A stretch of 46,233 bases of DNA, taken from contig NZ_HE978574.1 in assembly GCF_000311845.1 (NCBI RefSeq), positions 455,532-501,764 of the forward strand. The letters are read 5' to 3'. Below the pieces are notes generated by a model. It made no database searches, was not told the origin of the DNA, and saw only the letters and a program-made list of their open reading frames with translations. This DNA is from Enorma massiliensis phI (GTDB lineage: Bacteria > Actinomycetota > Coriobacteriia > Coriobacteriales > Coriobacteriaceae). Positions 12,816 to 17,024 of this stretch are shown here, piece after piece (position 1 is the stretch's first letter; each line of letters starts with the position of its first letter). The position numbers were made by a program, and so were the translations under genes.

Positions 12816-13579
12816 CTAGTTATCGCGCGCGAGCCGGCGGAAGAGCGCGGCGAACATGAGCGCCCCGGCTGCGATCCACGCCATGGTCACGATGAGGGGA
12901 GCCACGGCGGCTTCGGTGAAGAGCGCGCCCTCGATCGCGAGTCCCATGAGCTCGTAGATGCCCCCCCCAGCGGCGAGATGGACGCAATGCGCGCGGCGCC
13001 TTCACCCAGCATGCCGAATATCGGCACGAGCGCCACAAGTAGCACGGGCACGCTGTAGAACCCAGCGGTCATCTGGTCGCGGCAAGCGAGTCCGAGCACC
13101 AACGAGACGAACACCACGGGCAGCGCCCCCACGATCCCAAGCGCCAGGTACGGCGCGAGCCAGCTCAGCTGACCCTCGGCCACGAAGAAGCAGGCGGCGT
13201 TGACGACGGTTACGGCGAGCAGGGCTACAGAGCTCTTTGAGATTACGACCTCGCTGGCTCGAACGTTTGCAAGCATGAGCGTTCGGAGCGTGTGCTTCTC
13301 TTTTTCTTCGGCGATGCCGTAGAGCACGATCATCGTCGCGACCATTCCGATGGTCATGCAGAGGGACGACCCAAGCATGAACGTGGCGATTTCTTCACTC
13401 GCGGCCGCAAGCTCGCCCATGGTGACCCCTGCGCTCGTCGCGGCGTCGCCGATGACGAAGCGGTAGAGGACCATGAATCCGATAGGCATGAGGCAGACGA
13501 CGAACATCGTGGGGTTCTTGATGAGGTCGGCGAAGTCTTTACCGGCGAGCGCACGGACCTTCCGTATGGTGGCGTTCAT
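12816..13579 (-). pseudogene. ABC-2 type permease, frameshifted at a G8 tract
   Basis: Membrane component of the exporter whose ATPase gene ends 1 nt upstream. As written, translation from ATG 13579 gives 230 residues ending at 12887 in a non-membrane tail just after ISPLGG. The break is exactly at eight consecutive G on the coding strand (12961-12968). Adding one G, or removing two, restores a frame encoding GIYELMGLAIEG, one more helix (IVTMAWIAAGALMFAALF) and RRLARDN before a TAG at 12816. So the gene is broken here, phase-variable, or mis-sequenced at the homopolymer. The rest has about five helices and the usual EEKEKHTLRTLM cytoplasmic loop of ABC-2 permeases. Confidence 0.82.
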
Positions 13580-13580
13580 C

Positions 13581-14552
13581 TTACAGGCTCCTTCCGGTCA
13601 GCTCGAGGAAGACCTCCTCGAGGTTTGGTTCGTCGGAGTGGATGGCAAGTACCTCGTTTGCGGCCAAAAGGTCGTGAACGGTGTCGGCCGCAGCTGCATC
13701 GCGCGTGAGCTCCAACACGCCGCGGGTGCGCGTCGTGATGACGATGCGGTTGCGGGCGAACTTCATACTAAGCGATTGCGGCGCGTCGAGGGCGATGATG
13801 CGACCGCGGTCGAGGATTGCCAGGCGGTCGCAGAGCGCCTCGGCCTCTGCCATGTCGTGCGTGGTGATGAAGATCGTTGCCCCGGCGCGCTTGAGTTCGG
13901 AGAGCATCCGATGAACCTCGGCCCGCGCGGCAGGGTCCAGGCCCGAGGTCGGCTCGTCTAAAAAGAGCAGTTCGGGGGCGTGGACGAGCGCGCAGAGGAG
14001 GGCGGCTCGCTGGCGCATGCCCTTTGAGCAGTTTTTGATGAGGGTGCGGCGGTCGTCGCTGAGCTTCATGCGCTCGAGCAGCCGGTCGATATCGTGCTGC
14101 CCTCGACCGCGGATGCTGGCATACAGACGCAGGTTCTCTTCGATGGAAAGGCGCTCGTAGAGGGCGCTCGTGTCGGAGAGGATGCCGATGCGGTCGTAGT
14201 CGGCATTGCTTGCGTGCTCAATGGGGCGCCCAAAAAGCTGGATGCGTCCGGTATCTTGGGTGAGCTGGCGGGTAAGGAGCTTGATCGTGGTGGTTTTGCC
14301 TGCGCCGGATGGACCAAGGAAGCCGAAGCATTCACCCCGGCGCACGTTGAAGGTGAGGCCGTCGAGCACGCGCTTGGGCCCGAAGGAGAGGCAGACCCCC
14401 TCCATGGCGAGGATGGGTGCGGTGGGGATGGGTGCGCCGTGGCTGTGCGCGACGTATCCTTGCGGCGCCGGTTGGCGTTGCGGCGCGCCGTGGCCCTGCT
14501 GCTCAGAGTAGTTCTGCTGCTCGGCGGGGAGCGAGGGTCTAGCGCTGGTCAT
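13581..14552 (-). CDS. ABC transporter ATP-binding protein
   Basis: 323 residues. The first 40 or so are a Gln/Pro-rich extension, then a standard nucleotide-binding domain: Walker A GPSGAGKT, Q-loop region ILSDTSALYERLSIEENLRLY, signature NCSKGMRQRAALLCALV, Walker B LLFLDEPTSGLD and H-loop TTHD. The C-terminal 90 residues match exporters of the drug/natamycin type. ATG 14552 follows AAAGGAGG by 8 nt and overlaps the end of a 49-residue gene by 14 nt, while its stop is 1 nt before the permease gene. The four minus-strand genes 14960 to 12816 therefore form one tightly coupled operon. Substrate unknown. Confidence 0.95.
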   Translation of the reverse strand: MTSARPSLPAEQQNYSEQQGHGAPQRQPAPQGYVAHSHGAPIPTAPILAMEGVCLSFGPKRVLDGLTFNVRRGECFGFLGPSGAGKTTTIKLLTRQLTQDTGRIQLFGRPIEHASNADYDRIGILSDTSALYERLSIEENLRLYASIRGRGQHDIDRLLERMKLSDDRRTLIKNCSKGMRQRAALLCALVHAPELLFLDEPTSGLDPAARAEVHRMLSELKRAGATIFITTHDMAEAEALCDRLAILDRGRIIALDAPQSLSMKFARNRIVITTRTRGVLELTRDAAAADTVHDLLAANEVLAIHSDEPNLEEVFLELTGRSL

Positions 14553-14690: not shown

Positions 14691-14960
14691 CTAGCGCACC
14701 TCCTTCGCGCTGTCGGCGCGGGCGATGCGGCAGGCGGCCGGCGCGGCGAGGCCCTGTGCCGCCTCAAGTGCCTTCACGCGGCGGTCGAGCTTGGCGGCTT
14801 GGTAGCCGAGTCCCATCGCGAGCAGCATGGTGGCAATAGCGAGAACGAAGAGGAGCGTGGCGAGCTGTTCGAGCGTGAAGGGCGCGTTGGGGCCGAGCGC
14901 TTCGGTCATGAAATCGACGATTTGCTGCTCGGTCATGGCGATGGTGGGTAAGGCGTTCAT
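14691..14960 (-). CDS. 89-residue membrane protein with coiled-coil segment, first gene of ABC operon
   Basis: Small protein with one membrane helix (LATLLFVLAIATMLLAMGLG, residues about 33-52) followed by a short heptad-like helix (AAKLDRRVKALEAAQGL). ATG 14960 has GAAAGGA upstream, and ATG 14936 (MTEQQIV) is an alternative start. It leads the operon whose next members start 2 nt after its stop. No family recognised. Its size and placement suggest an accessory or regulatory subunit of the exporter. Confidence 0.75.
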   Translation of the reverse strand: MNALPTIAMTEQQIVDFMTEALGPNAPFTLEQLATLLFVLAIATMLLAMGLGYQAAKLDRRVKALEAAQGLAAPAACRIARADSAKEVR

Positions 14961-15248
14961 GATGGTCCTTTCGTCGGCCCGCGGTGTGGCGGGCGGTTGG
15001 CGTGTGAGACCATCCTCGCCGGGCGGCGACGCACGCTCAAGGCATTCCGCCTATTGGGAGCAGCGCAAACGACGAAAGGAGCATGGGAGGCCACGAGAGG
15101 AACATGCGCCGCAAGCGGAATGAAAGGCGCACGCCGTTGAAGCGCGGGCCATGCCCCATGTCAAAAGGTAAAAAAGGACTGTCCCTAACGTGACGCTCGC
15201 TGGCGACGTTGGGGGTCTTAGCCCTCGCCGCTCTATTGCGCGTGAGGG

Positions 15249-16214
15249 CTATCGCCAGCCGTAACGGTCGCGCATGGCCTCGGCACGACCCTTGGCGAGC
15301 GGGATCTGCGTTTCGCGTGCGTCGGCGAGGGTCAAGTTGAAACTGTTCCGGGTAAAGCGCTCGACCTTCGCCACCTTCTGCACGTTCACGATGTAGGACC
15401 GGTGGCAGCGGAAGAACCCGAATCGCTCGAGCTCCGCTTCGAGTTCGTCGAGCGTCATGCTCACGGGATAGAGTTCTCCGCGTACGCTCGCGAAGTTCTG
15501 GCGGTTCACGCTCTCCACGAAATCGACCTCGCGCGGGTCGAAGAGGAGCGTCGCGCCGTCCATGCGGGCCGGCACCTTGAACACATGCACCTCGTCCCCG
15601 GCATAGAACGCCTCGTCGGGCTCTTCGGGATCGGACCCGATGGCAGTCTTGGCAGGTAGAAGGCGCCCGCCCTCTTCGTAATACGCGGTGCCGGGCATGA
15701 GGAGCGCCTCGCGGAGCGGTTCGCCCGCGGTGATGAGGATGCCGCCCGCGTCGGCTACGGCGCCCATCCATGCGGTGACGACGCCGCGCGTAGCGGGGGT
15801 GATGTTCGCGAGGGGGCGCTCGCAGAACACGACCTCCGGCTCGAAGAGGCTCATGCGAGCGAAGTTGATGAGCGCGCGCTGCTCGGGGGAGAGCTTCCTT
15901 ATCTGGGTCTTCGCAATATGTGCAAGGCCGAAGTGCGCGATGGCGTCGCTTGCCGTGACGCTGCCGCCCGCGATGCGCGAGAAGAAGGTGAGGTAGGAAC
16001 GGACGGTTTCGCGATCGAAGCCCTGGTCGGTGGCGAGGTAGAACGCGCAGCGCCGCCGCTGGTAGCGTTCGTGCACGAAGCGAGCTGCGCGGTCTACGGT
16101 CTCGCGTCCGCATTCGATATGAACGCTCGCTCCCATCTCGCCGGCAAGCAGCTCTTCCACCGAGGCATATGCGGCTCGTTGCCCGTTGTCGCGTTGCGCG
16201 GTGCTGCTCGCCAT
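15249..16214 (-). CDS. LytTR DNA-binding regulator fused to a degenerate ABC-ATPase-like domain
   Basis: 321 residues. The C-terminal part (about 221-321) is a LytTR domain: LFDPREVDFVESVNRQN, FFRCHRSYIVNVQKV and FTRNSFNLTL are typical. The N-terminal 190 residues look like an ABC nucleotide-binding domain without Walker A. There is a Q-loop-like FYLATDQGFDRETVRSYLTF (58-76), a signature-like LSPEQRALINFARMSLFEP (108-126), a Walker-B-like PEVVFCE with Cys for the Asp, and ILITAGEP where the H-loop His is missing. It is thus probably catalytically dead and senses or docks with the exporter. ATG 16214 is preferred because AGGAAGG lies about 6 nt upstream, and ATG 16220 is too close to it. Divergent from the permease at 16269 by 54 bp. 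Confidence 0.88.
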   Translation of the reverse strand: MASSTAQRDNGQRAAYASVEELLAGEMGASVHIECGRETVDRAARFVHERYQRRRCAFYLATDQGFDRETVRSYLTFFSRIAGGSVTASDAIAHFGLAHIAKTQIRKLSPEQRALINFARMSLFEPEVVFCERPLANITPATRGVVTAWMGAVADAGGILITAGEPLREALLMPGTAYYEEGGRLLPAKTAIGSDPEEPDEAFYAGDEVHVFKVPARMDGATLLFDPREVDFVESVNRQNFASVRGELYPVSMTLDELEAELERFGFFRCHRSYIVNVQKVAKVERFTRNSFNLTLADARETQIPLAKGRAEAMRDRYGWR

Positions 16215-16268
16215 GTCCATCCTTCCTGTCGAATGCCGAGCATACAGTATATCGGGTATCATGGGCGC

Positions 16269-17024
16269 ATGGACCAACGTGGACGCTCTCATATCGCCGC
16301 GCTCATGCGGCGCGATTTGATGGACGCCGTGCGCAACCGCACGGTGCTTGTGATGGTTGCTGCCTCAGCTGCACTCGGGTGGGTGTTTCGCACCATCACG
16401 GTGCAAGGCGTTCGCTTTGAACCCGGTGAGGCGCCGGCGTTCCTCATGACCTTCGTGATTGGGTGCGCGCCTGCATTCGTCGGATGCGTGATGACGCTGT
16501 ACGTGATGGCCGAGGAGCGCGAACGCGGCATGTACCTCACGCTTGCCGAGGCGGGTGTGTCGCTCGCTGAGGTTGCGGCCGCCAAGCTGCTTGCGGCCTT
16601 GGTAGCGACGCTTGTGGTCGAGGGATTATTGTGTGTGCTGTTGGGGCTTCCTATGGAGCTCGCTGTACAGGCTCTTTTGCTGTCTGTCCCTGCTATGCTG
16701 CCCGTTTTGCTTGCGGGCCTTGCTTTCGGGTTGCTCGCGACCGAGCAGATGGCGTCGAGCGTGTTCGCGGTGCCCATCACGCTCATGGCGACGATGCCGC
16801 TCATCGCATTTCTTTCCGCGGGGCTACGGCAGGTGTGGTGGTTCATGCCGGGTGGCCAGGCGGCGGAGCTCGCCCGGGCGCTCTGCGGCATGGAATCGGC
16901 TGCATCGCCTGCACTGCTTGCAGGTCTTATGGTCGCATGGGTTGCAGCGTGCGGGACGTTCTCGTTTCTGGCCCATCGCAGCGCCGCCGCCCGCCTCAAG
17001 GCGGAGCTTGATCGCGCGCGTTAA
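16269..17024 (+). CDS. ABC-2 type permease
   Basis: 251-residue integral membrane protein with about six helices and the ABC-2 arrangement: a short N-terminal RRDLMDAVRNRT segment, helix, helix, cytoplasmic AEERERGMYLTLAEAGVSLAEVAAAK, then four helices. It resembles the permease at 12816-13579 (compare EEKEKHTLRTLM there). It has no ATPase gene on its own strand, so it probably pairs with the ATPase at 13581 to make a heteromeric exporter under the divergent LytTR regulator. ATG 16269 is the first in frame before the homologous part. Its ribosome site is weak. Confidence 0.87.
   Translation: MDQRGRSHIAALMRRDLMDAVRNRTVLVMVAASAALGWVFRTITVQGVRFEPGEAPAFLMTFVIGCAPAFVGCVMTLYVMAEERERGMYLTLAEAGVSLAEVAAAKLLAALVATLVVEGLLCVLLGLPMELAVQALLLSVPAMLPVLLAGLAFGLLATEQMASSVFAVPITLMATMPLIAFLSAGLRQVWWFMPGGQAAELARALCGMESAASPALLAGLMVAWVAACGTFSFLAHRSAAARLKAELDRAR

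Follow-up and report, generated by a model that had tools for sequence, protein, structure and literature searches.

A LytTR regulator with a degenerate ABC ATPase domain, its ABC-2 exporter neighbour and a predicted operator between them

How cells adjust the supply of exporters to demand is commonly put down to drug-binding repressors or to two-component systems beside BceAB-type transporters. One gene in a 46,233-nucleotide stretch of the Enorma massiliensis genome (hereafter the window) raises the question of whether a transcription factor might instead read the state of a transporter by imitating its ATPase, and an operator predicted to the base would make that question testable at a single locus. 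The first-pass annotation described this gene as a LytTR regulator fused to an ABC-ATPase-like domain without Walker A, lying beside an exporter operon and divergent from a permease. Its strand needs correcting, since the open reading frame runs on the minus strand from 16214 down to 15249. The features of the locus are collected in Table 1.

Table 1. Features of the regulator and exporter locus, in positions of the window
Feature	Positions	Strand	Remarks
LytTR regulator with N-terminal pseudo-NBD	15249..16214	-	321 aa; coordinates include the stop codon
Pseudo-NBD, degenerate ABC ATPase fold, residues 15-195	15630..16172	-	AlphaFold2 and Foldseek/VIA
LytTR DNA-binding domain, residues 211-321	15252..15584	-	Pfam PF04397 (E=1e-19) and 3d6w fold match
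Degenerate P-loop position ECGRETVD, residues 34-41	16092..16115	-	Alignments with relatives and cognate ATPase
FDRETVRSYL, residues 66-75	15990..16019	-	Matches post-Q-loop YERLSIEENL of the cognate ATPase; best-kept segment
Degenerate signature segment LSPEQRALINFA, residues 108-119	15858..15893	-	Sequence and cognate alignment
Degenerate Walker B VVFCERP, residues 128-134	15813..15833	-	Sequence and cognate alignment
Operator repeat R1 TGTTCCTCTCGTG (predicted)	15092..15104	-	Repeat/motif analysis
Operator repeat R2 TGCTCCTTTCGTC (predicted)	15071..15083	-	21 bp from R1
Operator repeat R3 TGCTCCCAATAGG (predicted)	15050..15062	-	Half-degenerate
Predicted -35 TTGAGC of the transporter operon	15035..15040	-	TTG 63-64 from R1 in 18 of 21 aligned loci
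Predicted -10 GAGGAT, weak	15012..15017	-	17 nt from -35; fixed offset from R1
Small protein with one TM segment, encoded first in the transporter operon	14691..14960	-	Conserved in seven Collinsella/Enorma-neighbourhood loci
Cognate ABC-2 ATPase	13581..14552	-	Intact Walker A/B, LSKG-type signature and H-loop; frame open to 14645
Cognate ABC-2 permease	12816..13579	-	Frame break in 8-G run
Second, divergent ABC-2 permease	16269..17024	+	Often present in Coriobacteriia and Bifidobacterium loci

The fusion is borne out by Pfam, NCBIfam, phmmer and the predicted fold. The LytTR domain is recognised by Pfam at residues 222-317 with 71 bits, above the cut-off of 22.6. The ABC resemblance of the N-terminal part is weak in Pfam (E=0.021); the NCBIfam CcmA model, an NBD, matches residues 49-163 with E=1.4e-8, and phmmer relates the protein to NosF with E=4.6e-4. 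AlphaFold2, given 54 sequences (alignments for structure prediction were built without plasmid-derived rows), produced two well-defined domains with a loose linker at about residues 199-206 and a mean pLDDT of 91.8. The best solved-structure matches of this model are NosF for residues 15-207 (VIA Z 17.9, rmsd 2.8 over 176 residues) and the Bacillus cereus LytTR domain 3d6w for residues 211-321 (Z 17.8, rmsd 1.7 over 109). Besides NosF, the N-terminal domain matches TM_1403, PmtC and LptB in Foldseek/VIA comparisons, and a longer Bacillus relative, modelled from its own alignment, also retrieves ABC ATPases (Foldseek E 7e-18). As modelled, residues 15-195 are unambiguous in fold and form an ABC NBD; a fold unrelated to ABC ATPases, which would have spoken against the first-pass annotation, did not emerge. 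No receiver domain family was matched by Pfam in residues 1-210, where the model has the NBD fold.

The domain lacks the features by which an active ABC ATPase is recognised, namely Walker A, the Walker B Asp, an LSGGQ-like signature and the H-loop His. Much of this had been described correctly from the sequence: Walker B reads VVFCERP, with Cys in place of Asp and E132 retained, a signature-like segment is present, reading LSPEQRAL, and the H-loop His is missing. The loss of the Walker A motif likewise stands, but the P-loop is not absent as had been claimed, its position being kept as ECGRETVD; the segment made up of strand β31-34, ECGRETVD and helix 37-50 can be aligned to the P-loop both in longer relatives (e.g. 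AIKCHSEVGKQLI) and in the cognate ATPase. What has been deleted in the window's branch is most of the antiparallel β-subdomain surrounding this position, which the Bacilli and Clostridium forms retain. Walker A is found in none of the 84 pseudo-ATPase regulators, versus 70 of 76 cognate ATPases under one strict pattern; a sole pattern match among the regulators, in L079, was rejected on alignment, which places it elsewhere in the protein. By any known motif, therefore, the pseudo-NBD appears incapable of binding ATP, and a nucleotide-binding regulator was rejected for a family without any Walker A.

Decay has not been even along the domain. In a joint alignment of 44 pseudo-NBDs and the ATPases encoded beside them, identity to the regulator's own cognate is 19% over the whole domain, falling to 5% in Walker A, 15% in the H-loop and 18% in the Q-loop; it is higher in the signature (24%) and Walker B (31%), and highest, at 35%, in the post-Q-loop YERLSxxENL segment. 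The lead of this last segment is modest, given the 31% of both the Walker B and the post-signature segments. In ABC transporters it is this post-Q-loop segment that faces the permease's coupling helix.

A rival explanation makes the pseudo-NBD a direct ligand sensor of the ordinary one-component kind, with a pocket that takes up the exported compound or some other small molecule, the transporter being only the regulated target. The nucleotide site of the domain has indeed been remodelled under a constraint of its own, Cys35 at the P-loop position being invariant in an 8-row alignment; the domain evolves much faster than the cognate ATPase (mean identity 28% versus 52%), as a substrate-tuned domain might; and the single operator target described below would suit a local drug-responsive switch. 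However, Cys35 gives way to Met, Ala, Ser or Thr in several Bacilli, and a ligand pocket leaves unexplained why an NBD, and not some other domain, has been kept beside its own transporter in two phyla. We regard this explanation as unlikely. A redox switch based on a Cys conserved throughout the family was rejected on the same replacements.

The exporter operon beside the regulator and the divergent permease are both real, comprising an ABC-2 ATPase and ABC-2 permeases. The open frame of the cognate permease ends at 12887, while its homology continues in another frame to 12816; the break falls near 12960-12985, at a run of 8 G where relatives are intact with an SPLGGIYDL-type sequence, and represents either an assembly error or a phase-variable homopolymer. 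The small membrane protein encoded ahead of the ATPase (MTEQQI..ALGPNAPLTLEQLSALL.., with its start codon at 14960) has no confident Pfam match and is possibly a transporter accessory or a partner of the regulator.

A survey of relatives shows the linkage to ABC-2 transporters to be recurrent, as had been predicted. Across 84 loci (80 genome contigs, three plasmid loci and the window), an ABC-2 exporter ATPase and permease adjoin the regulator in 77, versus none of 20 control loci, ordinary LytTR genes of the same class, with such an ATPase within about 3.2 kb. The positive score of one locus (L021) reflects an ATPase frame that overlaps the regulator frame. Among the seven loci lacking the ATPase, four (L020, L025, L026 and L027) lie near contig ends and two (L051 and L069) keep a permease. 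Only in Raoultibacter timonensis (L040) does a full pseudo-NBD-LytTR gene have neither transporter ATPase nor permease of this type within 6 kb on each side. Annotated Priestia plasmids carry the same order of LytTR protein, ATP-binding protein and permease. On one Priestia megaterium plasmid (L017, 1-4505) a mersacidin-type lanthipeptide cluster with LanM and two precursors is found at a distance of a few kb from the system, a hint that some exporters of this family may serve bacteriocin export or immunity.

The clade of such regulators spans Coriobacteriia, Bifidobacterium, Clostridia and Bacilli, and hence two phyla, with members in Collinsella, Enorma, Olsenella-type organisms, Slackia, Adlercreutzia, Eggerthella, Gordonibacter, Bifidobacterium, Lachnospiraceae, Clostridium and many Bacillaceae. 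Within the window's family 12 of 67 genomes have such a gene, and in a sample of its phylum 5 of 246, a patchy distribution; no relative of the regulator was found in the viral contigs scanned. A tree of 106 NBDs unites the 44 pseudo-NBDs in a single clade with SH-aLRT support of 100, inside which the reduced forms make up a clade of their own (99); the pseudo-NBD regulators thus have a single origin. A chance resemblance to ABC ATPases was rejected by fold and tree. The branching order of the pseudo-NBDs follows that of the cognate ATPases, with which the regulator is co-inherited; pairwise distances in the two correlate with r=0.94 against a permutation maximum of 0.18, showing that the two genes travel together, although shared vertical history alone could give such a value. 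The common ancestor of the family would have lost nucleotide binding and catalysis in its ABC ATPase domain, and the Coriobacteriia/Lachnospiraceae branch would later have lost most of the β-subdomain. The family thereby illustrates how an ATPase has decayed in steps to become a domain with a regulatory role.

The decayed domain is nevertheless under purifying selection. Between the window and relatives 72-76% identical in the NBD part, dN/dS of the pseudo-NBD is about 0.12-0.28; the LytTR domain is more strongly conserved in the same relatives (88-95%). A decaying pseudogene was rejected on these low values and on the 84 open frames. Selection across the whole domain, together with its retention in two phyla and its strict linkage to the cognate exporter, also speaks against the pseudo-NBD being a relic of an old gene fusion that serves as a dimerisation or spacing scaffold, with regulation exerted through expression level. 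LytTR proteins are commonly dimeric on repeats, and the smaller size of the domain in the window's branch implies that much of the NBD is dispensable, as a scaffold would allow; we nonetheless find this explanation quite unlikely.

A second and independent line of evidence concerns the DNA between regulator and transporter. At 15050-15104 the window contains TGCTCCTYTCGT-type direct repeats with a 21-bp period, a predicted operator, not mentioned in the first-pass annotation, whose repeat unit has the consensus TGCTCC[AT][TC]TC[AG][TC]. In 39 Bacillota loci a near-perfect 9-mer pair at a spacing of 21 occurs in the regulator-transporter gap in 14, versus 0.7 expected; upstream of the regulator gene in the same loci there is no enrichment of 21-bp repeats, and repeats at the regulator's own promoter were accordingly rejected. 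The motif transfers between groups when both strands of whole loci are scanned. With training on Bacillota alone, the gap between regulator and ATPase holds the best pair in 22 of 31 loci of Coriobacteriia and relatives, all at 21 bp, with 0.7 expected; with the reverse training it does so in 23 of 44 loci versus 0.8. With seeds drawn from both groups and any gene order allowed, the best pair of the entire locus lies 100-900 nt upstream of the Walker A codons and on the same strand in 58 of 77 loci, versus 2.6 expected. Loci in which the transporter genes have changed place or orientation with respect to the regulator keep the repeats with the transporter. In the remaining 19 loci, all from Bacillota, the operator is weak or absent by the motif used. 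A pattern search finds the exact repeat pair once in the genome, and the window too has a single hit, this one; other genomic matches to the pair carry three mismatches and are no commoner than control matches. At the level of sequence, this conserved operator independently ties the regulator to transcription of the transporter.

LytTR sites consist of two direct repeats of 9-11 nt separated by spacers of 11-13 nt (PMC4847170), a geometry that the predicted 21-bp-period repeats fit. The LytTR protein YpdB binds repeats of GGCATTTCAT (PMC4847170), resembling GCTCCATTCAT of the predicted operator, and we infer that the LytTR domain of the regulator binds here. Scanning the operator region for consensus promoters and terminators gave no hit, and the -35 and -10 are therefore called from conserved spacing: 18 of 21 aligned loci of the Coriobacteriia type have TTG where the -35 is expected, and the distance from the first repeat to the -10 box is 86-87 nt in Coriobacteriia and Bifidobacterium and 66 nt, or one repeat less, in Bacillota. 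Assuming that transcription starts 7 nt after the -10, the centre of the R2/R3 pair falls near -61. AgrA activates from a repeat pair with its centre near -60 (PMC4227749), and LytTR Regulatory Systems (LRS) activate through repeats just upstream of -35 (PMC6193735). Since repeat geometry and position match these precedents (PMC4847170, PMC4227749 and PMC6193735), the regulator most likely activates the exporter operon rather than represses it. That it should be a repressor relieved by substrate or transporter is very unlikely, for although several Bacilli have their last repeat near the core promoter, and a TATAAT-like box at offset 39 from the pair, the Coriobacteriia repeats lie upstream of -35 in the register of an activator, both core hexamers in the window are weak, and repeats so placed activate in LRS (PMC6193735) and AgrA (PMC4227749). 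At some promoters, though, repression might be made possible by the third repeat.

Three smaller features of the promoter regions deserve mention. The TATAAT-like box at offset 39 from the repeat pair, near the -35 position, recurs in 7 of 23 loci from Bacillota, in addition to the -10 at 66. On the minus strand at 15215-15260, directly after the regulator stop codon and before the operator, there is a strong hairpin (AGCCCTC...GAGGGCT) with no T tract, possibly a terminator separating transcription of the regulator from that of the transporter. At 16214-16292, between the regulator and the divergent permease, is a conserved CATGATACCCGATATACT block, which among Collinsella/Enorma relatives serves the two genes alike; in the direction of the permease it places TATCAT a few bases before the ATG, in the manner of a leaderless transcript.

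Taken together, these results lead us to favour, with somewhat more confidence than doubt, a dedicated single-target activator of the ABC-2 exporter operon in which the pseudo-NBD is a sensor in contact with the transporter. The LytTR domain would bind the direct repeats, spaced 21 bp, that immediately precede the -35 of the transporter promoter. The pseudo-NBD would touch the cognate transporter either at the coupling-helix site of a permease or at the real ATPase, in line with the docking or mimicry first suggested for it, and the occupancy, assembly state or abundance of the exporter would hold or free the activator, the signal presumably running in that direction. A more specific version, which we put forward tentatively and think rather less likely to be right than wrong, is that the pseudo-NBD and the real ATPase compete for the permease, or that the pseudo-NBD pairs up with a single subunit of the ATPase, so that transport failure or substrate saturation frees the regulator to bind the 21-bp repeats and raises exporter synthesis; the transporter would in this way signal its conformational or assembly state to its own promoter. 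If true, this would be a one-protein flux sensor made from a dead copy of a transporter motor. The wider interest lies in a family, spread over two phyla, whose putative activator bears a dead copy of the exporter's motor domain next to the exporter that is its predicted target, and in a clear annotation for genes so far listed merely as LytTR family proteins.

The architecture itself has probably been catalogued already, in PIRSF036612/IPR012046, LytTR regulators with an ABC-type ATP-binding domain, which we take to be built in the same way as the window protein. The open-access literature searched contains no mention of either entry and no functional study of the architecture, and the PIRSF paper refers to LytTR only in connection with response regulators. 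What is defined here is the operator, the reduced form, the linkage to the transporter and the stepwise decay. NosF/DrrA-type ABC-2 ATPases share the fold of residues 15-195 (Z 17.9 for NosF), whereas the regulator is without their Walker A, Walker B Asp, LSGGQ-type signature, H-loop His and most of the β-subdomain.

AgrA and YpdB are alike in DNA-binding domain, repeat geometry and promoter position (PMC4227749, PMC4847170), but they carry a phosphorylatable receiver and the window regulator has none. In LRS such as HdrRM and BrsRM the regulators are also without a receiver, autoregulate, and have a membrane inhibitor encoded next door, which is DUF3021 or DUF2154 in four of five systems (PMC6193735). 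The likeness extends to the linkage of some LRS to ABC transporters, to the repeats upstream of -35 and to a proposed membrane switch partner. The small TM gene that follows the regulator in Collinsella/Enorma-type loci has no DUF3021 or DUF2154 match in Pfam and sits behind the operator. LRS further differ in autoregulating, whereas the window regulator, judged from sequence, has no repeats before its own gene, and in that the window regulator possesses a putative NBD-like sensor. In the MalK-MalT pair of Escherichia coli, a working ABC ATPase binds and inhibits a separate transcription activator. There too an ABC ATPase conveys transporter state to an activator, but in the window the ATPase is a dead copy, fused to the DNA-binding domain itself.
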